Assembly: GCF_030345095.1 (NCBI RefSeq)
Contig: NZ_CP128360.1
Coordinates: 4,650,001-4,714,000, forward strand
Reading direction: 5' to 3'
DNA from: Solwaraspora sp. WMMA2056
GTDB lineage: Bacteria > Actinomycetota > Actinomycetes > Mycobacteriales > Micromonosporaceae
Length of the DNA: 64,000 bases
Shown here: one piece after another, positions 16,394 to 30,917 of the stretch
How the letters are laid out: each line of letters opens with the position of its first letter
Numbering within the stretch: the stretch's first letter is position 1
Notes under the pieces: generated by a model
Told to the model about the DNA's origin: nothing
What the model saw: only the letters and a program-made list of their open reading frames with translations
The model's database searches: none
Position numbers and translations under genes: made by a program

Positions 16394-16735
16394 ATGGGCG
16401 AGCGCATGCTGCGCGGAAGCCGTCTGGGAGCAGTCAGCTACGAGTCCGACCGCAACACGGAGCTCGCGCCGCGCCAGACCCGCGAGTACCTCTGCGCCAA
16501 GGGGCACCAGTTCGAGGTCCCGTTCGCCGTCGACGCAGAAGTCCCGGTCACCTGGGAATGCAAGTTCGACGGCAGCGTCGCCCGGCTGGTCGACGGCAAC
16601 GAACCGGAGCAGAAGAAGGCCAAGCCACCGCGTACCCACTGGGACATGCTGCTGGAGCGCCGGTCGATCGCCGAACTCGAGGACATCCTGGCTGAACGTC
16701 TGCAGGAGGTCCGCAACCGTCGCGGCGGTGTCTGA
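16394..16735 (+). CDS. rbpA: RNA polymerase-binding protein RbpA
   Basis: Actinobacteria-specific transcription factor of 113 residues that binds RNA polymerase and the principal sigma factor and stabilises open complexes. The unstructured N-terminus (MGERMLRGSRLGAVSYESD) is followed by the core domain (about 28-72, REYLCAKGHQFEVPF with C34/H38 and WEC with C56). A basic linker (QKKAKPPRTHWDML) follows, then the sigma-interacting helix RRSIAELEDILAERLQEVRNRR. It is full length. GAGGGGA lies about ten bases before the ATG. A SigR-like promoter precedes it and a strong hairpin follows it. Confidence 0.96.
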   Translation: MGERMLRGSRLGAVSYESDRNTELAPRQTREYLCAKGHQFEVPFAVDAEVPVTWECKFDGSVARLVDGNEPEQKKAKPPRTHWDMLLERRSIAELEDILAERLQEVRNRRGGV

Positions 16736-16766
16736 CCCGGGGGCGAACACCCGGTCCGGCTGTAGC

Positions 16767-16811
16767 AACGGTGTGGGGCCCGTACGCGACGCGTACGGGC
16801 CCCACACCGTT
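16767..16811. terminator. strong bidirectional terminator between rbpA and fxsA
   Basis: A perfect 21-bp stem (16767-16787 with 16791-16811) and a three-base loop. The rbpA stop is at 16735 and the opposing gene's stop is at 16823, so it serves both. It ends in TTT on the plus strand. Confidence 0.85.
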
Positions 16812-16822
16812 TCACACCACGA

Positions 16823-17344
16823 TCAGCGTGGATCCACGATCTCGCCCTCGATCGTCGGGCCGTCCGCCGCCTGCTGGGCGGTGCCCGGGTCGGCCGGCGA
16901 CGGCCCACCAGTCGACGACGGCGGATACACCCGGACCCGCCGTGGGCCGAAAACCTGTCCGGCCGCCGCTGACGACATCCGCCGCTCCGCCGCGACCTGG
17001 ACCCGGCGGCGCACCAGCCGCCGCACCGGCGGCACCGCCAGCACCGCGCCGGCGGCACCGCTGACCAGACCGGGCGTCGCCAGCAGCAGACCGGCGACAA
17101 GACCGAGCACACCGTCGCTGACCTGCTCGCCAGGGGGCTGACCGGCCTGCGCCGCCGCCCGGAAGTTGCGCCACGCGCGGACACCTTCCCGCCGCAGCAG
17201 CACCATTCCCGCCATCGACGCCGCGATCACCACCAGCAGCGCCCAGCCGTACCCGATCTGGCGGGCCACCGACACGAAGACGACGAGTTCCAGAATCAAT
17301 CCGGCGACCAGCGCCAGCGGAATCCAGCGCACCCGTCGACGCAT
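16823..17344 (-). CDS. FxsA family membrane protein
   Basis: Small membrane protein of 173 residues. Two hydrophobic segments near the N-terminus (about 6-25 and 30-50: LALVAGLILELVVFVSVARQ, WALLVVIAASMAGMVLL) are followed by RREGVRAWRNF, the FxsA signature region. A second hydrophobic pair lies at about 78-105. The tail is basic then acidic. E. coli FxsA suppresses phage T7 exclusion when overproduced; the bacterial role is unclear. ATG 17344 has GGAGG five bases upstream. It lies 58 bp before ppm on the same strand in map order but is transcribed after it. Confidence 0.88.
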   Translation of the reverse strand: MRRRVRWIPLALVAGLILELVVFVSVARQIGYGWALLVVIAASMAGMVLLRREGVRAWRNFRAAAQAGQPPGEQVSDGVLGLVAGLLLATPGLVSGAAGAVLAVPPVRRLVRRRVQVAAERRMSSAAAGQVFGPRRVRVYPPSSTGGPSPADPGTAQQAADGPTIEGEIVDPR

Positions 17345-17402
17345 GTCACCTCCAGCGAACGTGCGGTGTGGCGTCACCCGTCCAGCATGACACGCCGTAC
17401 CG

Positions 17403-18218
17403 TCACGGCCAGCGCGCCGGCGACGCCGCGTCGCGGTCACGCCGTCCCGCGCCGGTCACCGCGTCACGACGGGCCCGCAGCCCCCACACCGTGACCCGCC
17501 ACAGCGCCTCCCGCACGATCGCGGCGCTCATCTTGCTGGCACCCTGCTCCCGCTCGGCGAAGGTGATCGGCACCTCGACGATGCGGAACCCCTCCCGGTA
17601 CGCCCGCCAGGTCAGCTCCACCTGGAACGAGTAGCCCTGCGACGACACACTCCCGTAGTCGATCTTGTCGAGGACCGGCAGCCGGTACACCCGGTACCCG
17701 CCGGTCGCGTCACGCACCGGCATCCCCAACGCCAACCGGGTGTACAGGTTGCCGCACTGCGACACCACCCACCGGTGCCGGGGCCAGTTCAACACCTCAC
17801 CGCCCGGCACCCAGCGCGACCCGATGACCACGTCGGCGCCCACGGCCGCGTCCAGCAGCGCCGGCAGCTGCTCCGGCGCGTGCGAGCCGTCGGCGTCCAT
17901 CTCCACGACCGCGTCGTAGCCACGGTCCTTCGCCCAGCTGAACCCGGCGACGTACGCCGCGCCCAGGCCCTGCTTGCCGGGGCGGTGCAGCACGAACACC
18001 TGCCCGTCGGCGGCGGCCAGCTCGTCGGCGACCGCACCGGTGCCGTCCGGCGAGTTGTCGTCGGCGATCAGGACGTCGACCTGCGGCACGGCAGCCCGGA
18101 CCCGCCCCACGATGAGCCGTACGTTGTCCGCCTCGTTGTACGTGGGGATGACCACCAGCACCCGACCGACACCCGGGTAGCCCTCCGGGCCATCGCCTGC
18201 CGACACCGCCTCGCTCAC
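17403..18218 (-). CDS. ppm1: polyprenol monophosphomannose synthase (GT2)
   Basis: Glycosyltransferase family 2 enzyme of 271 residues that moves mannose from GDP-mannose to polyprenyl phosphate, giving the donor for lipoglycans and protein mannosylation. VLVVIPTYNEADNVRLIV (about 19-36) opens the nucleotide domain, and DDNSPDGTG and EMDADGSH hold the metal-binding acids. WPRHRWVVSQCGNLYTRLAL and the GYRVYRLPVL stretch are typical of Ppm/DPM1. GTG 18218 overlaps the lnt stop (GTGA) and has GGAGG upstream. In mycobacteria Lnt and Ppm are one polypeptide; here they are separate and coupled. Confidence 0.93.
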   Translation of the reverse strand: MSEAVSAGDGPEGYPGVGRVLVVIPTYNEADNVRLIVGRVRAAVPQVDVLIADDNSPDGTGAVADELAAADGQVFVLHRPGKQGLGAAYVAGFSWAKDRGYDAVVEMDADGSHAPEQLPALLDAAVGADVVIGSRWVPGGEVLNWPRHRWVVSQCGNLYTRLALGMPVRDATGGYRVYRLPVLDKIDYGSVSSQGYSFQVELTWRAYREGFRIVEVPITFAEREQGASKMSAAIVREALWRVTVWGLRARRDAVTGAGRRDRDAASPARWP

Positions 18219-19858
18219 CGTGCCTCCGCATCCACGCCGCCCGAGCGCCGTCGCAGCCACGCCGCCGCGACCACGACCGCCCCAGCGGCCACCACCAGCA
18301 CCATCTCGGGCCAGAAACCTGTCCGAGTCGCAAGAGTACGCGTCGAGCCCAGGTCCAACTCACTCACCACGACGGCGGCGGTGTTGAACTCCGTCGCCTG
18401 CGACACCCGCCCATTGTCATCGACGAATGCGGATACGCCAACCGTGGAGGCCATCAGCCCCGCCCGGCCGTGTTCCACCGCCCGCAGCCGCACCATCGCC
18501 AACTGCTGACCCGCCTCCGCAGCGTTGAACGTCGCGTTGTTCGTCTGCACCGCCAACACCTGCGCCCCACCGGTCACCGTGTCGCGGACCAGCCCGTCGT
18601 AGGCCACCTCGAAACAGATGATGCCGCTGACCGTCACCGGCCCCACCCGCAGCACGCCCGGCTCCGAACCGGCAACGAAATCCGCCCGGACCAGATCCAC
18701 CTGATCAGTGACCATCCGCGCCAACCGCCGAAACGGCACATACTCGGCAAACGGCACCGGATGCCGCTTCACGTACACCTGCTCGACGCCACCGGAACCC
18801 GAACCCGGCTCCCACACCAGACTCACGTTGCGCACCTCCCCCTCACCGGGCCCGTACGCCAACGCACCCACCACGATCGGCACCCCGACGGCCGCCGCCG
18901 CCTCGTCGATACTCGCCGCCGCCCGCGCGTCCCGCATCGGATCCACATCACTGGCGTTCTCCGGCCACACCACCAGATCCGGCGCCGGCACCTGCCCCGC
19001 CCGCACCTGCTCCGCCAACCGCACCGTGCCCTGCACATGGTTGTCCAGCACCGCCCGCCGCTGCGCGTTGAAATCCAACCCCATCCGCGGCACGTTGCCC
19101 TGCACGATCGCCACCGTCACCGACCCCGCCGCACCACCACCCAGCGGCACCACCGCCCCCACCAGCAGCACCCCCGCCGCGACCAGCACACCACCGGCGG
19201 CCACCAGCGCCGACCGGCCCACCCGCCACCGCCGCCACACCGCCGCCGCCAGCACCCCACCGGCCACCGCCACCACGAACGTCACCAACGGCGCACCACC
19301 GACCGCCGCCCACGCCAACGCCGGCGAATCACCCTGACTGAACGCCAACCGCCCCCACGGAAACCCACCGAACGGGGTCCGACCCCGCAACGCCTCCTGC
19401 CCCACCCACAACACACCCGTCACCACCGGCCACACCACCAGCCGCCGCCGGTCCACCACCGGCGACACGAACGCCGCCGCCGCCCCCAGCACCGCCAGGT
19501 AACTGGCCTGCAGCCCCGACAGCAGCACCCACGGCAAACTCCCGGTATGCAGATTCGTCCAACTCAGCAACGGCGCGAAGAACACCACCCCGGCGAGGAA
19601 ACCGACACCCGCGCCCGCCCACCACCGCCGACGGTGCACCGCCACCGCCAACGCCGCCACCCCCACCGGCGCCGCCCACCACAGGTCGTACGGCGGAAAC
19701 GCCACCAGCAGCGCCACCCCGGCGACCACCGCCAACCCCACCGCCACCGGAACCGGCACCGCCCGACCCGGCACCGCCGACACCGACGGACCCGACCGCA
19801 CCGGCACCGCCACCGCATCCACCATCGCCACGTCGAGCCCCACTGCGCCGCGGGCCAC
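18215..19858 (-). CDS. lnt: apolipoprotein N-acyltransferase
   Basis: Integral membrane enzyme of 547 residues that adds the third acyl chain to lipoproteins. About six to seven membrane segments fill residues 35-240. The nitrilase domain follows, with the triad E300 (VVWPENASD), K364 (VYVKRHPVPFAEYVP) and C415 (GIICFEVAYD). One membrane segment follows at about 515-535. The frame begins with GTG 19858; an ATG at 19825 is an alternative. Codons end overwhelmingly in G or T, unlike most genes in the window. It is coupled to ppm by a four-base overlap, which implies a shared lipoprotein/lipoglycan export role. Confidence 0.93.
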   Translation of the reverse strand: MARGAVGLDVAMVDAVAVPVRSGPSVSAVPGRAVPVPVAVGLAVVAGVALLVAFPPYDLWWAAPVGVAALAVAVHRRRWWAGAGVGFLAGVVFFAPLLSWTNLHTGSLPWVLLSGLQASYLAVLGAAAAFVSPVVDRRRLVVWPVVTGVLWVGQEALRGRTPFGGFPWGRLAFSQGDSPALAWAAVGGAPLVTFVVAVAGGVLAAAVWRRWRVGRSALVAAGGVLVAAGVLLVGAVVPLGGGAAGSVTVAIVQGNVPRMGLDFNAQRRAVLDNHVQGTVRLAEQVRAGQVPAPDLVVWPENASDVDPMRDARAAASIDEAAAAVGVPIVVGALAYGPGEGEVRNVSLVWEPGSGSGGVEQVYVKRHPVPFAEYVPFRRLARMVTDQVDLVRADFVAGSEPGVLRVGPVTVSGIICFEVAYDGLVRDTVTGGAQVLAVQTNNATFNAAEAGQQLAMVRLRAVEHGRAGLMASTVGVSAFVDDNGRVSQATEFNTAAVVVSELDLGSTRTLATRTGFWPEMVLVVAAGAVVVAAAWLRRRSGGVDAEAR

Positions 19859-20324: not shown

Positions 20325-21758
20325 TCAACCCGACCCAGGGCATCGACCACCACCTACCGCGTGTCGACCGGCGTGTCCCCGCCGACCACCGGCCGCCACC
20401 CCCGGCACCGCCACCACATGACGCTCCAGCAGACCCGCCGCCGCCTGCGGAAACTCCCCCGCCAGCAGACCCGCCGCCGCCAACACGTACGACGTGTCGA
20501 CCACCGGCACCGCCGCCCGCGGCACCAGCCAGCCGCCACCCCGGTCGTCGACCAGCCGCCGCAACACCCCACCCGCGTCGGCCCCCGCCGCGTGCCGCAA
20601 CACCCCACCCGAACCCACCAGCCACCGCACCCGCCGCAGATCCCGACCACCGCCCGGCTCCTGCCCGCCCCCGCGCGCGTGCCGACGCACCGCCACCACC
20701 GCCGCCAACTCCACCAGCCGCAGATCCACCGCCCGACCCGCCGCATCGACCGGCACCAGACCCGGACACGCCACCCGCCGCGCCGCCAACGGCGTCAACA
20801 CGGCCGCCTCCTCATCACCGACCAGACGCTCCGCCACCGCCGCGGCCACCACACCCGCCGCACCCGCCCGCACCCCCAGATCGCCCTCCACCGTGCGGGC
20901 CTGACCCCACCAGCCGGCCACCTCCGGCGTCGGCACCGGCTCGGCACCCGCCGGCTCACCGTCCGGCGCCACCACCGAATACACGTCCGTCGTCGCCCCA
21001 CCCACATCGACCACCAGCACATCGCCCCCCACCCGGTCAGCGAGGACCCCCACCCCCGACACCACCGCGTCCGGCGTCGCCGCCCGCACCCTCGATGCGA
21101 ACCGGCCGTCACGCGACAACCCCGAACCGCCGATCACATGCCGCAGAAACACCTCCCGCACCGCCGCCCGCGCCGCCGCCGGCGACAACACCCCCAACCG
21201 GGGAAGCACGTTGTCCGCCACCGTCACCGCCACCCCCGCCGCCCGCAACGCGGCGGCCGCCGCCGCCCGCCCCTGCACGTTGCCCGCCACCACCACCGGC
21301 GAAGACATCCCCGCCGACGCCAACCGCGCCGCGTTGTGCAGCAGCACCTCCACGTCACCGCCGTCGGTCCCGCCGACCAGCAGCACCACATCCGGTGCCG
21401 CCGCCCGCAGCCGCGCCACCTCCGGCGCGTCCAACCGGCCCGCCGCCACATGCACCACCCGCGCACCCGCCGACAACCCCACCCGGACCCCCGCCCGCGC
21501 CGTCACCAACGGCTCGTACCCCACCACCGCCAACCGCAGCCCACCACCCGCCGACGAACACACCAGCCACGGCGCACCCCGCACCCCGCCCGGCACCCGC
21601 GCCTCCGCCGCCGTCACCGCCGCCGCGAGGCCCTCCCACACATCCGAGGCCACCGTCGTCGGATGCGCCGCCGACGCCAGCAACGCCCCGTCGGCCGTGT
21701 CGACCACCACGACCTTCGTCACCGTCGACCCGACATCGGCACACACCGCCACGCTCAT
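20325..21758 (-). CDS. MutL/GlmL-type aminomutase reactivase
   Basis: Protein of 477 residues of the GlmL/MutL family: actin-fold ATPases thought to reactivate B12-dependent mutases. ADVGSTVTKVVVVD (about 8-21) is the phosphate-1 loop, and VVDVGGATTDVYSVV (about 250-264) the phosphate-2 loop. VVLLVGGTDGGD is the family's conserved middle block. In lysine-fermenting bacteria MutL/MutS-like proteins (KamB, KamC) accompany lysine 5,6-aminomutase; being the last gene of this operon fits that job. The start overlaps the kal stop by four bases (ATGA). The last 25 residues are Gly-rich and not conserved-looking. Confidence 0.87.
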   Translation of the reverse strand: MSVAVCADVGSTVTKVVVVDTADGALLASAAHPTTVASDVWEGLAAAVTAAEARVPGGVRGAPWLVCSSAGGGLRLAVVGYEPLVTARAGVRVGLSAGARVVHVAAGRLDAPEVARLRAAAPDVVLLVGGTDGGDVEVLLHNAARLASAGMSSPVVVAGNVQGRAAAAAALRAAGVAVTVADNVLPRLGVLSPAAARAAVREVFLRHVIGGSGLSRDGRFASRVRAATPDAVVSGVGVLADRVGGDVLVVDVGGATTDVYSVVAPDGEPAGAEPVPTPEVAGWWGQARTVEGDLGVRAGAAGVVAAAVAERLVGDEEAAVLTPLAARRVACPGLVPVDAAGRAVDLRLVELAAVVAVRRHARGGGQEPGGGRDLRRVRWLVGSGGVLRHAAGADAGGVLRRLVDDRGGGWLVPRAAVPVVDTSYVLAAAGLLAGEFPQAAAGLLERHVVAVPGVAAGGRRGHAGRHAVGGGRCPGSG

Positions 21759-22153
21759 CCGGCACCACCCGCCGCCGGCACCACCACCGTCCCCGACGCC
21801 GTCACCGCCACCAACGGCGGCACCACCACCCGCGCCGCCGACACCGACAGGTCAGGCCGCCCCCGACACACCACCGCGCATTCGAACCGCACCGACCGGC
21901 TGCGGACCCCCACCCGTACCACCGTCCCGGTCGCCTCCACCACGTCCCCGGCCCGCACCGGCGCCACGAACCGCACCTCGTCGTAGCCCGCGAACAACCC
22001 CTCGTCGCCGTCACCCCGGATACACAACTCCGTCGCCACGTCACCGAACAGACCCAGCACGTATGCGCCGTCGACCAGACCACCCGCGTAGTGCGCATGC
22101 CCGTACGGCACGTACCGCCGATGCGTCACCGACAACCCGACCACCGCGCTCAC
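21755..22153 (-). CDS. kal: 3-aminobutyryl-CoA ammonia-lyase
   Basis: Hot-dog-fold enzyme of 132 residues that eliminates ammonia from L-3-aminobutyryl-CoA to give crotonyl-CoA, a late step of lysine fermentation. Small size and the segments RRYVPYGHAHYAGGLVDGAY, GDVATELCIRGDGDEGLFAGY and EVRFVAPVRAGDVVEATG are typical of Kal; the last resembles MaoC/hot-dog strands. It starts with GTG 22153, overlapping the kamE stop by four bases, and its own stop overlaps mutL by four. The tight coupling supports a shared pathway. Confidence 0.88.
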   Translation of the reverse strand: MSAVVGLSVTHRRYVPYGHAHYAGGLVDGAYVLGLFGDVATELCIRGDGDEGLFAGYDEVRFVAPVRAGDVVEATGTVVRVGVRSRSVRFECAVVCRGRPDLSVSAARVVVPPLVAVTASGTVVVPAAGGAG

Positions 22154-22905
22154 GACGCCGCCACCCGCCCCCGCGCCACCACCGCGTGCACCAGATAACT
22201 CGCCACCTCACGCGGTGTCGCACCCCGACCGAAGATCCGGTCCACCCCCAGCTCCCGCGCCATCAGCTCGTCGAACCGGGGACCACCGACCACCAGCAAC
22301 GGCCGCCGCGACGCCGGCACCGCCTCCCGCACCGCCGCCGACAACTCCCGCACATTGTGCAAATGCGCATCGCGCTGCGTCACCACCTGGGAAACCAGGA
22401 CCGCGTCCGCGTCCACCCGCACCGCCTCCTCCACCAACTCGGCCACCGACACCTGCGCCCCCATGTTCACCACCGCGAACTCCCGGTAGTACTCCAGACC
22501 CTTCTCCCCCGCGATCCCCTTCACGTTGAGAATCGCGTCGATGCCGACCGTGTGCGCGTCCGTACCGATACACGCCCCCACCACCGACAACCGACGCCCC
22601 AACCCGCCCCGCACCGCCGCGTTGACCTCCCTGGCCGCCAACAACGGAAAGTCCCGCTCCACCACCCGCACCGCCGACAGATCCACCAGATGACGCACCC
22701 GCCCGTACACCACGAAGAACGTGAACCCCTCCCCGACCGGCGCCGCGTGCACCACCATCACCGCCTCCAGCCCCATCTTCTGCGCCAACTGCGCCGCCGC
22801 GCCCTCCGCCCGCTTACCCGCCGGCACCGGCAACGTGAACGACACCTGCACCATCCCGTCACCGGTCGTGTCCCCGTACGGACGCACCACCTCAGCCACC
22901 GACAC
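22150..22905 (-). CDS. kamE: lysine 5,6-aminomutase beta subunit
   Basis: Adenosylcobalamin-binding subunit of about 251 residues. The B12 motif is complete: GTDAHTVGID (D116, H118, G121) supplies the base-off His ligand, and LLVVGGPRF is the later GG loop. K129 (ILNVKG) is in the place of the lysine that holds PLP in the resting enzyme. Together with KamD it migrates the terminal amino group of D-lysine or L-beta-lysine, the latter giving 3,5-diaminohexanoate. Several GTG codons lie in frame near the start; 22905 is chosen, which overlaps the end of kamD by 14 bases. Confidence 0.93.
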   Translation of the reverse strand: MSVAEVVRPYGDTTGDGMVQVSFTLPVPAGKRAEGAAAQLAQKMGLEAVMVVHAAPVGEGFTFFVVYGRVRHLVDLSAVRVVERDFPLLAAREVNAAVRGGLGRRLSVVGACIGTDAHTVGIDAILNVKGIAGEKGLEYYREFAVVNMGAQVSVAELVEEAVRVDADAVLVSQVVTQRDAHLHNVRELSAAVREAVPASRRPLLVVGGPRFDELMARELGVDRIFGRGATPREVASYLVHAVVARGRVAAS

Positions 22906-24484
22906 CACCACCCACCGGCTCCGCCAACAACTCCGACACCGGATTGACGTACCCGTCGGCCTGCACCACGACCCCGTCACGGCCCTTACCGCCATCCACC
23001 GGCCGACGCATCACCCCGAACGTGCCGTCGGCGATCGCCGACAACAACGACCCGTCGACGATCCGCTCCAACAACTCCACCGCCTCACCCAGCACCTGCC
23101 CGGCCCGCCGCTGAATGAACCCACCCGGCGCCGGAACGAAATCCTCCGCCAACCCCCCGGCCGCACCCAGCACGTACCGCACGTTCTGCAACGCGATGTC
23201 CCGGTCACTCAGCCACGGCGTCGCCACCGCCTCCGTCATCATGCCGACCAGCAGAATCCCCTGCCCCGTCAACACCCCCGCCAAATTGAAAAACCCGTTC
23301 AAAAGATTCCCCCGGAACACGTCACCGGTCATGTGCCGGGTCGGCGGCATCCACTTCAACGGCGCATCCGGAAACAACTCCCGCGCCAACAACGCATGCG
23401 CCAGCTCCAACCGGAACGACTCCGGCACCGACGGATCGATCTCGAACGCGTGCCCCAGCCCCAACTGCCAGTCCGCCAACCCCGCCTCACGGGCGAAGAA
23501 CTCGTTCAGCAGCTGCGACACCGTCACCGTATGCGCCGCCTCCACCGCATCCGCCGTCGTCAGATAATTGTCCTCACCAGTGTTGATGATGATGCCCGCC
23601 CGCGCATGCACCTGCCGCGAAAACCGCTGATCCACGAACGTCCGCACTGGATTGATGTCCCGGAACAAGATCCCGTACATCGAATCGTTCAACATCATGT
23701 CCAGCCGTTCCAGACCGGCCAACGCCGCCATCTCCGGCATACACAGACCCGACGCGTAATTCGTCAACCGCACATACCGGCCCAGCTCAGCCGACACCTC
23801 ATCCAACGCCGCCCGCATCAACCGGAAGTTCTCCTGCGTCGCGTACGTCCCCGCGAACCCCTCCCGCGTCGCCCCCTCCGGCACATAGTCCAACAACGAC
23901 TGCCCCGTCGACCGGATCACCGCGATCACATCCGCACCGGCCCGCGCCGCCGCCTGCGCCTGCGGCACATCCTCATGGATGTCCCCCGTCGCCACGATCA
24001 GATACACCCACGGCCGCCGCGGCGGATCACCCCACCGCGCCACCAGCCGCTCCCGATCCCGCCGCGCCGCGTCCACCCGCCCCACCCCGACCGCCGCCGC
24101 AGACCGCGCCCACCGCCGCGCCGCCCGCGCCGCCGCACCCGAGGGCACCTCGAACCGCGCCCCACCCGACGCCGCCTCCTGCGCCAACCGGATCAACGCC
24201 GCCCCGTCCACCCGCGACCCTCCACCCCGCAGCACCGCGTCACACACCGGCACCGCCACCCCGTACCCCAAACCCACCTGGTCCGCCACCGCGTCCACCA
24301 ACCGGTTCACCCACGGAATCCCCTCCGCGTCCGCCCCGGCCACCCCCATCAACCGCAGCACCGCCCGCTCCACCGACACCGTCGTACGGCTCCGCGCCAA
24401 CTCCACCACCGGCGCCCCCGCCCGCGCCGCCAACTCCCGTGCCCGCGCCACCACCACCGGGTCCAGGCCCAACACCCCGCTCAC
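22892..24484 (-). CDS. kamD: lysine 5,6-aminomutase alpha subunit
   Basis: Catalytic TIM-barrel subunit of 530 residues, the usual length for KamD. Conserved stretches include YLIVATGDIHEDVPQAQAAA, IRSTGQSLLDYVPEGAT, YVRLTNYASGLCMPEMA, LNDSMYGILFRDIN and LKWMPPTRHMTGDVFRGN. It binds lysine as a PLP adduct and receives the adenosyl radical from KamE. GTG 24484 overlaps the amidohydrolase stop (GTGA), which fixes the start; the frame is open further upstream but that part is Gly-rich antisense noise. Codons end mainly in G and T. Confidence 0.95.
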   Translation of the reverse strand: MSGVLGLDPVVVARARELAARAGAPVVELARSRTTVSVERAVLRLMGVAGADAEGIPWVNRLVDAVADQVGLGYGVAVPVCDAVLRGGGSRVDGAALIRLAQEAASGGARFEVPSGAAARAARRWARSAAAVGVGRVDAARRDRERLVARWGDPPRRPWVYLIVATGDIHEDVPQAQAAARAGADVIAVIRSTGQSLLDYVPEGATREGFAGTYATQENFRLMRAALDEVSAELGRYVRLTNYASGLCMPEMAALAGLERLDMMLNDSMYGILFRDINPVRTFVDQRFSRQVHARAGIIINTGEDNYLTTADAVEAAHTVTVSQLLNEFFAREAGLADWQLGLGHAFEIDPSVPESFRLELAHALLARELFPDAPLKWMPPTRHMTGDVFRGNLLNGFFNLAGVLTGQGILLVGMMTEAVATPWLSDRDIALQNVRYVLGAAGGLAEDFVPAPGGFIQRRAGQVLGEAVELLERIVDGSLLSAIADGTFGVMRRPVDGGKGRDGVVVQADGYVNPVSELLAEPVGGGVGG

Positions 24485-26124
24485 CCCGCACCCACCGCGA
24501 CCTGCTCCGCCGCCACGAAGATCTCCCGCCCCCGCGACACCGTCCGCAGACACCTCGGCAACGGCGTCGGATCCGCCGGACCCCACACCGCCGGATCGTC
24601 CGCCAGCACCACCGGCAACCCCTGCGGCGACACCCCCGCCGGAGCCGACCACACCGCGAACGTCGCCGCCGCACCCAACGCCAACACCCCCTCCCGGGAC
24701 GCGTCCACCACCCCCGGCGGCAACGCCCGCCACCCACCCCGGGTATGCGCCGCGAACGCCGACCGCACCGCCAACCGCGACGCCGGATTGAAATGCGCCG
24801 CCGCCGCCCGCACCGCACCCCACGGATCCAGCGGCGTCACCGGCGAATCCGACCCGAACGCCAACGGCACCCCCACCCCGTGCAGCACCGCGAACGGATT
24901 CGACGCCAACGCCCGCTCCACCCCCAACCGGGCCGCGTACATCTGCCCGTCACCACCCCACAACCGGTCGAACGCCGGCTGCACACTCGCCACCACCCCG
25001 AACTCCACGAACGCCGCCACCACCCGCCGATCCGGCAACTCCACATGCTCCACCCGGTGCCGACCCGCCCGCAGCCGCTCCACGCCGACCTGACGCGCCG
25101 CCGCCGCGAACCCGTCCGCCACCACCGACAACGCCGCGTCACCGATCGCGTGGAACCCACCCTGCACCCCCGACCGGACGCACTCCACCAGATGCGCCGC
25201 CACCTGATCCGCCGTCAGGAAACACCGGCCACAACCGTCCCGGTCCACATACGGCCGCGACACGTACGCCGTACCCGAACCGAACGCACCATCGACGAAC
25301 AGATCACCCCCCGCACCCACCGCACCCAGCTCCCGCGCCCGCGCCACCCCCATCAACTCGCCCCAGTAGCCGTACACCTCCGGCAGCCCGTCCCCCGACA
25401 TCGCCAACACACCGGCGAAATCCGCCTCCGACGAGATCACCGGACCACCACACTCGTGCACCGCCGCGATCCCCGCCCGCGCCGCCGACTCCAACGCCGC
25501 CCGCTGCGCGCCCGCCCGCTGCACCGCACCCAACGCACCGAACGCCACCGCCCGCACCGCATGATGCGCATCCGCCCGCACCCAACCCGACACCCCGCCC
25601 GCCGCCAGCACGTCCGCCTCGGTCGTCGGCGCCGTCGGCACCGCCGCCAGCAGCGCCTGCGACACCAACGCCGAATGCATCGACGCCTGCGACAGATACA
25701 CCCGCCGACCACCAGCCGCACTCGACAACTGCCCCGCGTCCGGCGGCACCGCCCGCTCCCACGTCGACTCGTCCCAGCCGTGCCCCAGCACCACCGCGTC
25801 ACCCGGCAGCCCCGCCGCGAACCCCGCCACCCGGTCCAGCAGCTCCTGCGGCGACCGCACCGCCGACAGGTCCAGCCCGCCCGACACCAGACCGGTGTCC
25901 GTCACATGCACATGGGCGTCCACGAACGCCGGCGTCACCACCGCCCGGTCCAGCTCCACCACCACATCGGCCCGGGGCGCGTCCGCATCCACCCCCAGCC
26001 AGGCGATCCGGCCGTCGCGCACCAGCAACGCCGTCGCCCCCGGCTGCGCCGGACAGTACAACCGGCCACCCCGGTACAGCACCGCAGGCAGATCGGCACC
26101 GGACACCATCGCAGGATTCGTCAT
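24481..26124 (-). CDS. amidohydrolase family protein (YtcJ-like)
   Basis: Metal-dependent hydrolase of 547 residues with the YtcJ-type composite barrel. DAHVHV (about 69-74) is the first metal-binding HxH. Later strands carry HECGGP, GGFHAIGDAAL (about 300), HRVEHVELPD and AFGSDSPVTPLDP with the final Asp. It sits between kdd (five-base gap) and kamD (four-base overlap), so it is made with the lysine enzymes, though lysine fermentation as known has no such step. It might hydrolyse an amide, a lactam or an N-acylated lysine-like compound to feed the pathway; that is inference. Confidence 0.85.
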   Translation of the reverse strand: MTNPAMVSGADLPAVLYRGGRLYCPAQPGATALLVRDGRIAWLGVDADAPRADVVVELDRAVVTPAFVDAHVHVTDTGLVSGGLDLSAVRSPQELLDRVAGFAAGLPGDAVVLGHGWDESTWERAVPPDAGQLSSAAGGRRVYLSQASMHSALVSQALLAAVPTAPTTEADVLAAGGVSGWVRADAHHAVRAVAFGALGAVQRAGAQRAALESAARAGIAAVHECGGPVISSEADFAGVLAMSGDGLPEVYGYWGELMGVARARELGAVGAGGDLFVDGAFGSGTAYVSRPYVDRDGCGRCFLTADQVAAHLVECVRSGVQGGFHAIGDAALSVVADGFAAAARQVGVERLRAGRHRVEHVELPDRRVVAAFVEFGVVASVQPAFDRLWGGDGQMYAARLGVERALASNPFAVLHGVGVPLAFGSDSPVTPLDPWGAVRAAAAHFNPASRLAVRSAFAAHTRGGWRALPPGVVDASREGVLALGAAATFAVWSAPAGVSPQGLPVVLADDPAVWGPADPTPLPRCLRTVSRGREIFVAAEQVAVGAG

Positions 26125-26129
26125 GACGA

Positions 26130-27179
26130 TCAGTCTGCCGCCAGCCGGGCCTCGAACAACGCCCGAACCCCCGGCTCGGCACGCAGCAGCCCCACCGCGA
26201 ACTCCGCATGACCCGGCACGAACCCGTTACCGACCAGCATCGTCACATCCGCTGCCAGCCCCTCGGCACCCAACGCCGCCGCCGCGAAGCTCGTCGCCAT
26301 CGAGAAGAACACCACCGTCCCACCATCGGCGGTCGCCAGCACCGCCCCGTGCTCACAACCGGGGACGTCGACACAGACCACCGTCACATCGGCCCCGCCG
26401 CCCAGAACCTCGCGCACGGCGGCCGACACCGCCACCGGATCCCGCGCGTCCGCCACCACCACCGCCGACGCCAGACCGGTCGCCGCCAGCCGGTCACGCT
26501 CCGCCCCGGTCGGCACCACCCCGACCGTACGGGCGGCACCCGCCCGCCGCGCCGCCGCCACCGCCAGGCAGCCACTCTTGCCCGCCGCCCCCAGCACCGC
26601 CACCGACAGCCCCGCGCGTGGGTCCGCCGGCACCTGCCGGCGGACCACCCGGTCGGTCAACGCCGGCGCACCACACACGTCGAACACCGCCAACGCCAAC
26701 CGGTCCGGCAGATCAGCCGGCAGCGGAGCCACCACGGTACGGCCGAACAGGATCGCGTGGCCCGTACACGGCACCTGCTCCCCGGTACCGTCCCAACCCG
26801 CCAGCCCGTCGGTGACCACCAACGGCGTCAACGTCAACGAGACCAGGCTGGCCACCCGCTGCCCCACCCGCACACCGGCGCTCGACCGGGGACCGACCGC
26901 GTCGACCGTGCCGATCAGCATCCCACCGGAGCCGGTCACCGGGTTGTGCATCTTCCCCCGCCGCGCGATGATCCCCGCGACCTCGGCACGCACCGCCGCG
27001 CCGTCACCGCCGTGCGCCTCGCGCAGTTGGCGGAAGCTCGCCGCGTCGAGGTTGAGCCGCTCCACCCGGATCCGGATCTCGTCGTCGGCGATCCGGGGAT
27101 CGGTGTCCAACCGCCAGGCCGCCTGCGGCAACGCGCCGACCGGCTCGCGTACCCGATGCAGACCGACCGGCGACGACAC
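26130..27179 (-). CDS. kdd: L-erythro-3,5-diaminohexanoate dehydrogenase
   Basis: NAD-dependent oxidative deaminase of 349 residues that converts 3,5-diaminohexanoate to 3-keto-5-aminohexanoate. It has a zinc-alcohol-dehydrogenase-like layout: an N-terminal GroES part (NPVTGSGGMLIGTVDAVG, about 85-102) and a Rossmann part with VAVLGAAGKSGCLAVAAARR (about 185-205). DVPGCEHGAV and TVVFFSMATSFAAAALGAEG are distinctive Kdd blocks. GTG 27179 has GGGAGGG upstream and excludes an in-frame leader that covers the divergent kamA start. It is the first gene of the operon that runs through mutL. Confidence 0.92.
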   Translation of the reverse strand: MSSPVGLHRVREPVGALPQAAWRLDTDPRIADDEIRIRVERLNLDAASFRQLREAHGGDGAAVRAEVAGIIARRGKMHNPVTGSGGMLIGTVDAVGPRSSAGVRVGQRVASLVSLTLTPLVVTDGLAGWDGTGEQVPCTGHAILFGRTVVAPLPADLPDRLALAVFDVCGAPALTDRVVRRQVPADPRAGLSVAVLGAAGKSGCLAVAAARRAGAARTVGVVPTGAERDRLAATGLASAVVVADARDPVAVSAAVREVLGGGADVTVVCVDVPGCEHGAVLATADGGTVVFFSMATSFAAAALGAEGLAADVTMLVGNGFVPGHAEFAVGLLRAEPGVRALFEARLAAD

Positions 27180-27225
27180 CGCACCCTCCCTCGCAGCAGA
27201 CCCGCCTGCCGTCAAGAACCTCAAC

Positions 27226-27271
27226 CTGGACCTGACAAGACGGGAAGTCTTCCGGCAGAATAGTGGTCCAG
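27226..27271. promoter_or_regulatory. nested inverted repeats in the kamA/kdd divergent promoter
   Basis: An outer repeat CTGGACC (27226-27232) with GGTCCAG (27265-27271) encloses an inner one AAGAC-N5-GTCTT (27237-27251). It lies in the 138-bp gap between the divergent starts of kdd (27179) and kamA (27318). A single regulator, possibly of the Lrp/AsnC type, could control both transcripts from here. Confidence 0.45.
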
Positions 27272-27317
27272 CGAAAAGATATCCAGATGCCTTCGAGGTC
27301 GGCCCGCAGGAGCACAC

Positions 27318-28700
27318 ATGCCGCAACCCATCTCGGCCGCGACCACCTCGGCCACCCCGCACCAGCCGTACGCCTACCGCCGACGCCCCCTCGTCGAACC
27401 CGACTGGACCCGGCTGCCCGGATGGCGGCACGTCACGACCGACGAGTGGCACTCCGCCCAGTGGCAGCGGGCCCACTGCGTCAAGACCGTCGCCCAGCTA
27501 CGCGCCGTCCTCGACGACCTGGCCGACGACAGCTTCTACGCCGACCTCGCCGCCGACCAGACCGGCAACGCCACGATGTCGATGCTCATCACCCCACAGA
27601 TGATCAACACGATGGTCCCCGACCGGACCCCCGACACCGACTCGCTGCGCGCCGACCCCGTCCGCCGCTACATGCTCCCGCTGGCCAGCGACCGCCGCAC
27701 CGACTGGCCGTCCCACCCGTACGCCAGCCGCGACTCGCTGCACGAACACGACATGTGGGTCGCCGAGGGCCTCACCCACCGCTACCCCACCAAGGTCCTC
27801 GCCGAACTCCTCGCCACCTGCCCGCAGTACTGCGGGCACTGCACCCGGATGGACCTCGTCGGCAACTCCACCCCCACCGTCGACAAACTCCGGCTCACCC
27901 TGCGGCCCGCCGCCCGCTACCAGGCCCAACTCGACTACCTGCGTACCCACCCGCAGGTACGCGACGTCGTCGTGTCCGGCGGCGACGTGGCGAACCTGCC
28001 CTGGCGACACCTCGAGAGCTACCTGCAGGGCCTGCTCGACATCGACACCGTCCGCGACATCCGGCTGGCCACCAAGGCGTTGATGGGGCTACCACAGCAC
28101 TGGCTGCAACCCGACGTCGTGGCCGGCCTGGAACGGGTCGCCCGGACCGCGGCCAGCCGCGGCGTCAATCTGGCCATCCACACCCACGTCAACCATGCCC
28201 AGTCGCTCACCCCACTGGTCGCCCGCGCCGCGCAGACCGCCCTCGACGTCGGCATCCGCGACGTCCGCAACCAGGGTGTGCTGATGCGCGGTGTCAACGC
28301 CGACCCCGACTCCCTGCTCGACCTCTGCTTCGGGTTGCAGGGCGAAGCCGGCATCCTGCCCTACTACTTCTACCTGTGCGACATGATCCCCAACGCCGAA
28401 CACTGGCGGGTCCCGGTCGCCGCCGCCCAGCAACTGCAGCACGACATCATGGGCTACCTGCCCGGCTATGCCACCCCGCGGATCGTCTGCGACGTCCCCC
28501 TCGTCGGCAAACGGTGGGTGCACATGCACACCGAGTACGACCGGGAACACGGCATCTCCTACTGGACGAAGAACTACCGCACGTCGCTCGACGGCGACAC
28601 CGACGACGCCCTCGACCGCCGCTACCCCTATTACGACCCGATCGACACGCTGCCGGAGTCCGGCCAGCGGTGGTGGCGCCGGCAGCGGAACCAGGCCTGA
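27318..28700 (+). CDS. kamA: lysine 2,3-aminomutase family radical SAM enzyme
   Basis: Radical SAM, PLP-dependent aminomutase of 460 residues. The [4Fe-4S] motif is C168-x3-C172-x2-C175 (CPQYCGHC). Conserved LAM blocks follow: VVVSGGDVANLP, RLATKALMGLP, HTHVNHAQSLT, NQGVLMRGVN and PYYFYLCDMIP. K398 in DVPLVGKRW is in the place of the PLP lysine, but the usual PGGGGK is altered and the Arg inside the cluster motif (CRHC) is Gly. It would make L-beta-lysine, the substrate of KamDE; the changes leave room for another substrate. AGGAG precedes ATG 27318. Confidence 0.88.
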   Translation: MPQPISAATTSATPHQPYAYRRRPLVEPDWTRLPGWRHVTTDEWHSAQWQRAHCVKTVAQLRAVLDDLADDSFYADLAADQTGNATMSMLITPQMINTMVPDRTPDTDSLRADPVRRYMLPLASDRRTDWPSHPYASRDSLHEHDMWVAEGLTHRYPTKVLAELLATCPQYCGHCTRMDLVGNSTPTVDKLRLTLRPAARYQAQLDYLRTHPQVRDVVVSGGDVANLPWRHLESYLQGLLDIDTVRDIRLATKALMGLPQHWLQPDVVAGLERVARTAASRGVNLAIHTHVNHAQSLTPLVARAAQTALDVGIRDVRNQGVLMRGVNADPDSLLDLCFGLQGEAGILPYYFYLCDMIPNAEHWRVPVAAAQQLQHDIMGYLPGYATPRIVCDVPLVGKRWVHMHTEYDREHGISYWTKNYRTSLDGDTDDALDRRYPYYDPIDTLPESGQRWWRRQRNQA

Positions 28701-29174: not shown

Positions 29175-29618
29175 TCAGGTCAGCCGGGGCGGACGGGCCT
29201 CGTACGGCGTGGACAGCACCACGGTGGTCCGGGTCGTCACGTTGGCCGCGGTCCGGATCTCCTGCAGCAACCGTTCCAGCTCCGCCGGGCTACCCACCCG
29301 CACCAGCAGCAGGTAGAAGTCCTCCCCCGCCACCGAGTAGCACGAGTCGATCTCGGCCAGGTGCGACAACCGCTCCGGGGCGTCGTCAGGCTGCGACGGA
29401 TCGAGCGGCCGGATCGCCACGAACGCACTCAGCGGCAGACCCACCGCCTCGTAGGACACCCGCGCCGCGTACCCCTTGACGACGCCCCGCTGCTCCAGGC
29501 GCCGGACCCGCTGATGGACCGCCGACACCGACAGACCCACCCGCTCGGCGAGGTCGGTGTACGACACCCGGCCGTCAGTGGTCAACGCGGTGACAATGGC
29601 GCGATCGGTCTCCTCCAC
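29175..29618 (-). CDS. Lrp/AsnC family transcriptional regulator
   Basis: Feast-or-famine regulator of 147 residues. The winged helix-turn-helix (about 2-50: EETDRAIVTALTTDGRVSY, LSVSAVHQRVRRLEQRGVV) is followed by the RAM ligand-binding domain (about 65-140: LSAFVAIRPL, SVAGEDFYLLLVRV). It starts with GTG 29618; the next codons (gag gag) make a Shine-Dalgarno-like run inside the gene. Such proteins sense amino acids or their keto acids. It could control the nearby acyl-CoA dehydrogenase or the kam genes about 2 kb away; neither is shown. Confidence 0.92.
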   Translation of the reverse strand: MEETDRAIVTALTTDGRVSYTDLAERVGLSVSAVHQRVRRLEQRGVVKGYAARVSYEAVGLPLSAFVAIRPLDPSQPDDAPERLSHLAEIDSCYSVAGEDFYLLLVRVGSPAELERLLQEIRTAANVTTRTTVVLSTPYEARPPRLT

Positions 29619-29693: not shown

Positions 29694-30836
29694 TCAGTCC
29701 CGGGCGAGGGCGCGGGAGATCACCACCCGTTGGATCTGGTTCGTGCCCTCCACGATCTGCAGCACCTTCGCCTCCCGCAGATAGCGCTCCACCGGGTGGT
29801 CGCTGACGTAGCCGTACCCGCCGAGCACCTGGACCGCGTCGACCGTGACCCGCATCGCGACGTCCGTGGCGAACAGCTTCGCCTTCGCCGACTCGACCGC
29901 GTACGGTCGACCGGCGTCGCGCAACCGGGCGGCGGCCAGGGTCAACGCCCGCGCCGCCGACACCTGGGTCGCCATGTCGGCGAGCAGAAACCCGAGGCCC
30001 TGCAGATCGATGATGCGGCGACCGAACTGCTCCCGCTCACGGGCGTAGCCGACCGCGTGGTCCAGCGCCGCCTGGGCCAGGCCCACCGCACAGGCCGCGA
30101 TCCCCAATCGGCCGCCCGCCAGCGCCGACATCGCCACCGTGAAGCCCTGGCCGGGCTCGCCCACCACCTGGTCGGTCGACACCCGGGCGTCGTCGAAGAC
30201 CAACTGCGCCACCGGCGACGAACGCAGGCCCATGGTCCGCTCCGCCGGCTGCGCGGCCATCCCCGGCGTACCGGCGGGAACCAGCAGGCAGGAGATCCCG
30301 CCCGCTCCCGGACCACCGGTCCGGCAGAAGACGTTGTAGAAGTCGGCCACCGCGGCGTGGGTGATCCACGCCTTCGTCCCGGACACCACGTAGTCGGCAC
30401 CGTCGCGGACCGCCCGGGTGGTCAACGCCGCCGCGTCCGAGCCGCCCTGCGGCTCGCTGAGGCAGTACGCACCGAGCAGGTCCCCGCCGAGCATCTCGGG
30501 CAACGCCTTGCGCTGGCGTTCGCTGCCGAACTCGGCGACCGGACCGCAGGACAGGGTGTGCACGCTCACCGCCTCGGCGACGGCCAGCCACCGGCTCGCC
30601 AGCACCTCCAGCACCTGCAGGTAGACCTCGTACGGCTGGCCACCGCCACCGTCGGCCTCGGCAAACGGCAGCCCCAGCAGGCCCGCGCGGCCCAAGGTCC
30701 GGAGCACCTCGCGGGGAAACTCGCCGCGCGACTCGAAGTCGTCTACCCGACCGGCCAGCTCCCGGTCGGCGATCTCGGTGGTCAACTCGATCAGGTCGTA
30801 CGCCTCCGGGGAGGGCAGGATCCGTTCGACGGTCAT
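29694..30836 (-). CDS. acyl-CoA dehydrogenase
   Basis: FAD-dependent acyl-CoA dehydrogenase of 380 residues, the usual length for the short/medium/branched-chain class. CLSEPQGGSDAAALTT (about 125-140) is the first signature and YVVSGTKAWITHAAVADFY follows. REREQFGRRIIDLQG and VDAVQVLGGYGYV lie in the C-terminal domain, and VEGTNQIQRV (about 360) carries the Glu that acts as base in many family members. ATG 30836 has AGGAG nine bases upstream. The substrate is undetermined. Next to kam genes, butyryl/crotonyl-CoA metabolism is possible but not shown. Confidence 0.94.
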   Translation of the reverse strand: MTVERILPSPEAYDLIELTTEIADRELAGRVDDFESRGEFPREVLRTLGRAGLLGLPFAEADGGGGQPYEVYLQVLEVLASRWLAVAEAVSVHTLSCGPVAEFGSERQRKALPEMLGGDLLGAYCLSEPQGGSDAAALTTRAVRDGADYVVSGTKAWITHAAVADFYNVFCRTGGPGAGGISCLLVPAGTPGMAAQPAERTMGLRSSPVAQLVFDDARVSTDQVVGEPGQGFTVAMSALAGGRLGIAACAVGLAQAALDHAVGYAREREQFGRRIIDLQGLGFLLADMATQVSAARALTLAAARLRDAGRPYAVESAKAKLFATDVAMRVTVDAVQVLGGYGYVSDHPVERYLREAKVLQIVEGTNQIQRVVISRALARD

Positions 30837-30917
30837 CTCAGGGCGCTCCTGGGTGGTGAGCGGGTCCGACGCCGACCACGGTGGTGGTCGGCGGTGCCGC
30901 GACGACACCCTGCAAGC

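Follow-up and report, generated by a model that had tools for sequence, protein, structure and literature searches.

Closest described systems and comparison with the locus

The lysine fermentation pathway is best known from Clostridia and Fusobacteria. In the passages of PMC3149608 on which we draw, its steps are assigned to KamA, KamDE, Kdd, Kce and Kal (all papers below are likewise cited for individual passages). Here, we analyze a locus with homologues of these enzymes in a stretch of 64,000 nt from Solwaraspora sp. WMMA2056 (positions C1:4650001-4714000 of its one-contig 7.01-Mb genome), in the following called the window. We consider it likely that this locus, together with a distant kce gene, encodes a complete lysine catabolic route, and that it has been passed on mostly vertically in actinobacteria for a long time, probably under Lrp-type control.

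Compared with the lysine fermentation of Clostridia, Fusobacteria and Candidatus Cloacimonas acidaminovorans, the window genome has a homologue for every enzyme function, with Kdd, KamD, KamE and Kal of the window at equivalog level. In contrast to the anaerobes, its set is split over two loci and comprises a divergent KamA subfamily. The window locus furthermore has a mutL gene within the operon, an embedded amidohydrolase gene and an Lrp-type regulator, is syntenic with lnt-ppm-fxsA-rbpA, and belongs to a host with an acetoacetyl-CoA synthetase that is, judging from its family, presumably aerobic. A known variant, in which the beta-transaminase Kat replaces Kal (PMC3149608), has KamDE, Kdd and Kce in common with this set, while the window locus has Kal. 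D-ornithine 4,5-aminomutase (OraSE) with the GlmL-related Or-4 likewise combines a B12- and pyridoxal phosphate (PLP)-dependent aminomutase with a MutL-type protein, but KamD and KamE of the window match OraE at only 121.3 and 113.5 (cut-off 800), and its MutL matches Or-4 at 229.3 (cut-off 600). Among the papers listed in searches of the open-access PMC literature, we found none on a lysine-to-crotonyl-CoA route in aerobic Actinobacteria; the main text of PMC6461909, in the passages considered, makes no mention of aminomutases.

Gene content of the locus

The minus strand of the window carries, in this order, kdd, an amidohydrolase gene, kamD, kamE, kal and mutL. Four of the products pass their NCBIfam equivalog cut-offs, i.e., the L-erythro-3,5-diaminohexanoate dehydrogenase Kdd (26130..27179; NF052381, 255.7 vs. 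200), KamD (22892..24484; NF052384, 673.4 vs. 600), KamE (22150..22905; NF052385, 345.1 vs. 280) and the hotdog-type 3-aminobutyryl-CoA ammonia-lyase Kal (21755..22153; NF052388, 184.9 bits vs. 160). The fifth, the GlmL/MutL-type ATPase MutL (20325..21758; PF13941, 411 bits), is likely the reactivase of the B12 aminomutase and exceeds the subfamily cut-off of TIGR01319 glmL_fam (227.2 vs. 204.05). The names that an earlier, model-generated note on this stretch had given to these five proteins are confirmed. KamD and KamE align over nearly their full length with solved lysine 5,6-aminomutases (KamD with 8t0v, E 2.9e-156, and 1xrs, E 1.2e-155; KamE with 9q1a, E 5.5e-68). For KamE and 9q1a, the alignment covers the DAHTVG cobalamin motif as well as the Lys of NVKG, which we take to be the PLP lysine.

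All reading frames of the locus are open; for Kdd, KamE and KamD, presumed GTG start codons were chosen. Neighboring genes overlap by 4 bp at the mutL/kal, kal/kamE and kamD/amidohydrolase junctions and, given the GTG start, by 14 bp at kamE/kamD. The same note had described one overlapping operon but overlooked the complete amidohydrolase gene (24481..26124; 547 aa; PF07969, 200.9 bits), which a gap of 5 bp separates from kdd. Also present, as the note had said, is a divergent lysine 2,3-aminomutase homologue: the kamA-like gene (27318..28700, plus strand) starts 138 bp from kdd and encodes a member of a divergent subfamily of lysine 2,3-aminomutase-type radical S-adenosylmethionine (SAM)/PLP enzymes (2a5h, E 6.6e-39), though it stays below the cut-offs of the KamA-family models. 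The near flanks hold housekeeping genes (lnt, ppm, fxsA, rbpA, DEAD helicase), among which rbpA (plus) and fxsA, ppm and lnt (minus; together 16394..19858; PF13397, PF04186, PF00535, TIGR00546) form a syntenic anchor.

Genome-wide search for kce and completeness of the proposed route

No kce lies within the 64,000 nt, in agreement with the earlier note. The genome-wide search for which that note had called yields a single BKACE match (C1:79905-80714), far from the window and adjoining ygfZ and asparaginase II homologues. An absence of kce from the genome is rejected given this match and its co-occurrence with KamD. The closest solved structure is that of the Kce 2y7d (E 2.3e-61). Of 11 compared positions, 8 are identical; among the nine that we take to be the active site, likewise 8 agree and T106 is replaced by Ser. 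A BKACE group is described for the substrate KAH (PMC4922564), which we read as 3-keto-5-aminohexanoate.

A kce gene away from the kam locus is common in the family. In four loci of Glycomyces and two related genera (L052, L053, L077 and L154, the last from Glycomyces artemisiae), a kce orthologue (64-68% identity) directly adjoins kamA. Within the family, among 150 genomes drawn, 141 have both KamD and Kce (all with a Kce of at least 64% identity), two have Kce only, seven have neither and none has KamD only, where weak Kce matches in G030 and G033 are counted as absent. In the two Kce-only genomes (G002 and G113), the kamA locus runs into a contig end. Within a draw of 396 genomes from the phylum, Kce reaches at least 211 bits in 16 (the next score is 170), 14 of which also have KamD; the remaining two (G327 and G390) are incomplete, and three genomes with weak KamD matches only (G280, G313 and G334; 141-145 bits) were set aside. 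Of the 33 named genomes searched, 31 have a Kce of at least 57% identity, in G567 as two separate pieces. Fisher tests on these co-occurrences ignore kinship.

Furthermore, the genome encodes an acetoacetyl-CoA synthetase (789.2 bits vs. a cut-off of 520.9), and the search for CoA-transferases, also proposed by the note, gives four PF01144 matches at two places. Since both the synthetase and kce are present, the route from lysine to crotonyl-CoA and acetoacetate is complete on paper. It would start with the conversion of L-lysine to beta-lysine by the KamA-like enzyme, followed by the formation of 3,5-diaminohexanoate by the adenosylcobalamin- and PLP-dependent KamDE, which MutL would keep active. 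Kdd would then produce 5-amino-3-oxohexanoate, from which Kce would form, with acetyl-CoA, 3-aminobutyryl-CoA and acetoacetate, and Kal would release ammonia from the former to give crotonyl-CoA. Acetoacetate would be activated by the acetoacetyl-CoA synthetase while crotonyl-CoA would enter beta-oxidation. That is, in a presumably aerobic actinobacterium the route would feed the tricarboxylic acid cycle rather than butyrate formation, probably governed by the neighboring Lrp-type regulator.

Distribution, synteny and age

KamD exceeds its cut-off in 140/150 genomes of the family, 49/197 of the class and 15/396 of the phylum; at E 0.001, the counts are 141 for the family and 52 for the class. 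It was found neither in 14 control genomes nor in the 14 genomes listed for f2, a second family within this order. Most genomes of the family have one KamD. At another place in its genome, G048 carries a second KamD (L062, G048:C1:4908655-4910214; 46% identical to the window KamD) together with a KamE, likely acquired separately.

Synteny was assessed for the named loci, i.e., the best 80 of at least 585, which are biased to near kin; 60 of them have enough flank for counts. KamE occurs in all 60, Kal and Kdd in 59 each, KamA in 56 and the divergent kamA-kdd arrangement in 53. On the flanks, lnt or ppm is found in 56, rbpA in 51 and an Lrp-family match in 39, while kce is part of a single locus. 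MutL, present in 19/60, is rejected as a constant component of the cluster. An acyl-CoA dehydrogenase gene (29694..30908, minus strand, in the window; PF00441, 158.9 bits) encodes a possible downstream enzyme; relatives of more than 60% identity occur in 12/60 loci, i.e., it is weakly linked. The named loci stem from Micromonosporaceae, Nocardioidaceae, Kribbellaceae, Intrasporangiaceae, Pseudonocardiaceae and others. Even outside the class, three loci of another family (f9) show the order kamA-kdd-amidohydrolase-kamD-kamE.

A quick KamD tree (66 of 122 extracted rows, without clostridial sequences, supports from the SH-like approximate likelihood ratio test only) mostly groups by family, with some deep forks open; the window KamD clusters with Micromonosporaceae (support 92, fork drawn open). 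Among congeners, KamD shows dN/dS values of 0.13-0.21, which is inside the range of the flanking genes. Given the conserved chromosomal place and a KamD tree that largely follows taxonomy, the locus is, as far as sequences tell, old and mostly vertically inherited, with losses, and not a single recent import. The label "anaerobe-style" in the earlier note should not suggest something foreign to a single actinomycete: the cluster is common in the family and also occurs in numerous Actinomycetes outside it, with a chromosomal place that is mostly conserved.

Two entries carry doubtful labels. A 12.4-Mb genome titled Rhodococcus rhodnii (L135) groups with Kibdelosporangium in the KamD tree, such that its name is probably wrong, and a metagenome-assembled genome titled Spirochaetaceae with an actinobacterial cluster (L132) is probably a binning error.

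Candidate regulation

Between kdd and kamA, we find a 15-bp dyad, CGGGAAGTCTTCCGG (27241..27255; consensus CCGnAAnnnTTnCGG), which is a candidate Lrp-type operator. The window also encodes an Lrp/AsnC-family protein (29175..29618, minus strand; PF13404, PF01037) as candidate regulator of the locus; that an Lrp-type protein binds the dyad is a conjecture based on the neighboring gene and the kind of site. Of the 94 unique regions that separate kamA from kdd or from the amidohydrolase gene, 76 exceed the threshold of 10 for a 40-bp motif (83/102 with duplicates), compared to a maximum of 0.16 for shuffled regions; since the matrix was trained on the same regions, these counts are descriptive only. 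The dyad is also found between kamA and the amidohydrolase gene in congeners that have no pathway.

With regard to kce, the 15-bp matrix exceeds 10.4 (99% shuffle level) in 14 of 62 upstream regions, leaving 48 below, compared to 6/414 upstream of nine other locus genes. This level was chosen once 22 of these regions had been inspected, and hits are distributed as 9/22 for the first-seen and 5/40 for the later ones. The later regions alone still differ from the controls (Fisher p 0.0013, with related loci not independent). Among flank control windows (n=132), at least one scores high (maximum 15.4, 95% level 5.1). The counts tie the unlinked kce to control via the dyad in some lineages, e.g., Salinispora (L167) and Kutzneria (L171).

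Weighing the proposed route

Several observations count against a complete route in this genome. First, the distant Kce differs from 2y7d at positions 107 and 108 in addition to 106 and fails the equivalog cut-off of NF052387 (293.1 vs. 382). Seven further actinobacterial Kce also stay below this value (255.3-292.5), including the in-cluster ones of L052, L053, L077 and L154 (292.5, 255.3, 261.8 and 261.2, respectively), i.e., the cut-off excludes even Kce encoded beside kamA. Second, four KamD-positive genomes of the phylum draw (G336, G539, G208 and G328) are without Kce, and no Kce orthologue was found in Crossiella (G570) and Streptomyces sp. M41 (G572) among the 33 named genomes with the cluster. 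Third, the dyad at the kce of the window genome scores 7.2 (shuffle levels 6.2 for 95% and 10.4 for 99%) and was dismissed as a regulon signal there for its weakness, while no dyad is found upstream of kce in the congener L163. Fourth, the KamA-like enzyme is below the cut-offs of TIGR00238 (163.8 vs. 199.2) and of the lysine 2,3-aminomutase model TIGR03820 (160.6 vs. 525.4), and PMC6631532 gives a KamA-family enzyme from an actinomycete polyketide synthase (PKS) cluster as glutamate 2,3-aminomutase. Moreover, kamA occurs without the remaining pathway in several genomes, so it does not seem to be only a feeder. Finally, taking D293 and D330 to be the substrate-binding aspartates and K337 to be the PLP lysine of lysine 2,3-aminomutase, the window KamA has Ala (A328) in place of D293, where 8 of 19 aligned rows have Asp.

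Other features of KamA fit the enzyme class. The three cysteines of the CxxxCxxC motif (C168, C172 and C175) and D392, the counterpart of D330, are invariant across the 19 rows. K398, the counterpart of K337, is nearly invariant and aligned with a one-residue shift next to the 2a5h lysine. A structure model based on the same alignment has a mean pLDDT (predicted local distance difference test score) of 79, although residues 167-195, including the cluster motif, score below 50. Its best Foldseek match is 2a5h (E 3.0e-23, template modeling score 0.66, root-mean-square deviation 9.7). In glutamate 2,3-aminomutase, Asp330 is replaced; the window KamA differs by retaining D392 and reaches 111.5 of 650 for the respective model TIGR04368. 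The reaction type is likely the expected one, with lysine as the predicted substrate.

We have two readings from the earlier note to judge. Its B12- and radical-SAM-dependent route from lysine to crotonyl-CoA, with lysine as the putative substrate of KamA, fits best and is strengthened by a genomic kce that co-occurs with KamD. Its alternative, a branch using beta-lysine or 3,5-diaminohexanoate for something else, finds no support for KamDE and Kdd of this locus but does for KamA, as several genomes have KamA without the remaining pathway.

A possible second role of KamA

In three congeners (G079, G093 and G114), the gene order is helicase, acyl-CoA dehydrogenase, Lrp, kamA, amidohydrolase, lnt, ppm, fxsA and rbpA; kdd, kamD, kamE, kal and mutL were not found at this same locus, nor KamD and Kce in the whole genomes. 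Their kamA is 88% identical to that of the window and is under purifying selection (dN/dS of 0.09-0.11 among the three, 0.12-0.20 for other congener pairs). Among the other six KamD-less genomes of the family, G002, G113 and G063 (on a 3-kb contig) have KamA and G030 has pieces only, while no KamA orthologue was found in G033 and G059. In the class draw (n=197), KamA of at least 59% identity occurs in 55 genomes and KamD in 52, with 49 having both, six KamA alone (including G634, which is truncated at a contig end) and three KamD alone. Three of the KamA-only genomes (G629, G678 and G699, from the genus of Nocardioides ganghwensis) have kamA between an Lrp gene and lnt. Because kamA is retained where the pathway genes are absent, KamA seems to have a task in addition to supplying KamDE.

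KamA-like enzymes (lysine/glutamate 2,3-aminomutase), members of the same superfamily as the window KamA, are described from actinomycete PKS clusters (PMC6631532, PMC3364876), and KamA relatives from elongation factor P modification (PMC2821294). A 70% identical orthologue lies in a PKS/adenylation cluster (L194:4176-18656) of G342, a genome without KamD, where it could possibly provide a beta-amino acid starter unit. In L195:4686-8450, from a Nocardioides-type genome with KamA but without KamDE, kamA and lnt are separated by genes for a crotonase, an AMP-ligase and a relative of the amidohydrolase.

A broader reading remains tentative, and we would give it somewhat less than even chances. 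It holds that B12- and radical-SAM-dependent lysine catabolism is ancestral and vertically inherited in large groups of aerobic Actinomycetes, that kce is an unlinked member of the regulon controlled through the same dyad operator, and that KamA has a second, perhaps older job, namely making beta-lysine or another beta-amino acid product. Such a job would explain both the survival of kamA without the pathway and its reuse in biosynthetic clusters.

Alternative explanations

The amidohydrolase could be a pathway enzyme, e.g., one that opens a lactam of 5-amino-3-oxohexanoate. It is encoded between kdd and kamD in 40 of the 60 named loci, and a relative of 32-34% identity takes the same position in the three f9 loci. 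On the other hand, the three pathway-less congeners keep it at 79-80% identity, whereas ten cluster genomes from Nocardioides and Intrasporangiaceae have no in-cluster copy and best matches of only 28-39% identity; in Glycomyces-type genomes, a relative (47-52%) is encoded away from the kam genes, at the lnt locus in the one examined (G099). Since the gene is kept without the pathway and the pathway occurs without the gene (e.g., in Nocardioides), it appears to be part of the locus but independent of the pathway. A required pathway enzyme is largely rejected by these genomes, and we regard a pathway role in general as unlikely.

Slightly less probable still is a biosynthetic role of the enzymes, whose beta-lysine or 3,5-diaminohexanoate would go into a natural product or a solute instead of being broken down. 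A case for this is Streptomyces sp. M41 (L153:3019-17344), where KamA, a 935-aa frame combining Kdd and KamD, and KamE are encoded in a probable biosynthetic cluster next to an adenylation enzyme, an ATP-grasp ligase, a GNAT protein, a luciferase-like enzyme and a LuxR-type regulator. No kal was found here, nor a kce orthologue anywhere in the genome, and the cluster may yield a product derived from 3,5-diaminohexanoate. The KamA orthologue in the PKS/adenylation cluster of L194 and the congeners that keep KamA without KamDE point in the same direction. In the window, however, the operon includes kal and mutL, Kce co-occurs at the genome level, and the genes close by are of housekeeping type with no biosynthetic cluster.

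We give little credit to a pathway decaying in this genome, with kce gone from the locus and further genes being lost as in the three congeners. Three of six congeners besides the window genome are indeed without KamD and Kce, but the open frames throughout the locus and the KamD dN/dS values, which resemble those of the flanking genes, argue against decay, and a kce outside the locus, being common in the family, is no sign of it.

That the cluster was recently imported from lysine-fermenting Clostridia or Fusobacteria, for which one might cite where the pathway is best known and the second, 46% identical KamD of G048, is rejected as highly improbable on synteny and tree, i.e., by the identical chromosomal place across several families, the largely taxonomic KamD tree (albeit without clostridial sequences), the 141/150 KamD-positive family genomes and the gene order shared with the f9 loci outside the class.

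Implications

From the sequence comparisons, a route variant encoded by a conserved locus of actinobacteria and a kce far from it is likely real. For annotation in practice, the current Kce cut-off misses 8/8 of the actinobacterial Kce scanned. A possible second role of KamA is the most interesting point; KamA without KamDE poses the question of which role the beta-amino acid has. If the proposed route is true, many cultured genera, including well-known antibiotic producers, would degrade lysine by an unrecognized B12-dependent route, which would bear on precursor supply, B12 demand and annotation.

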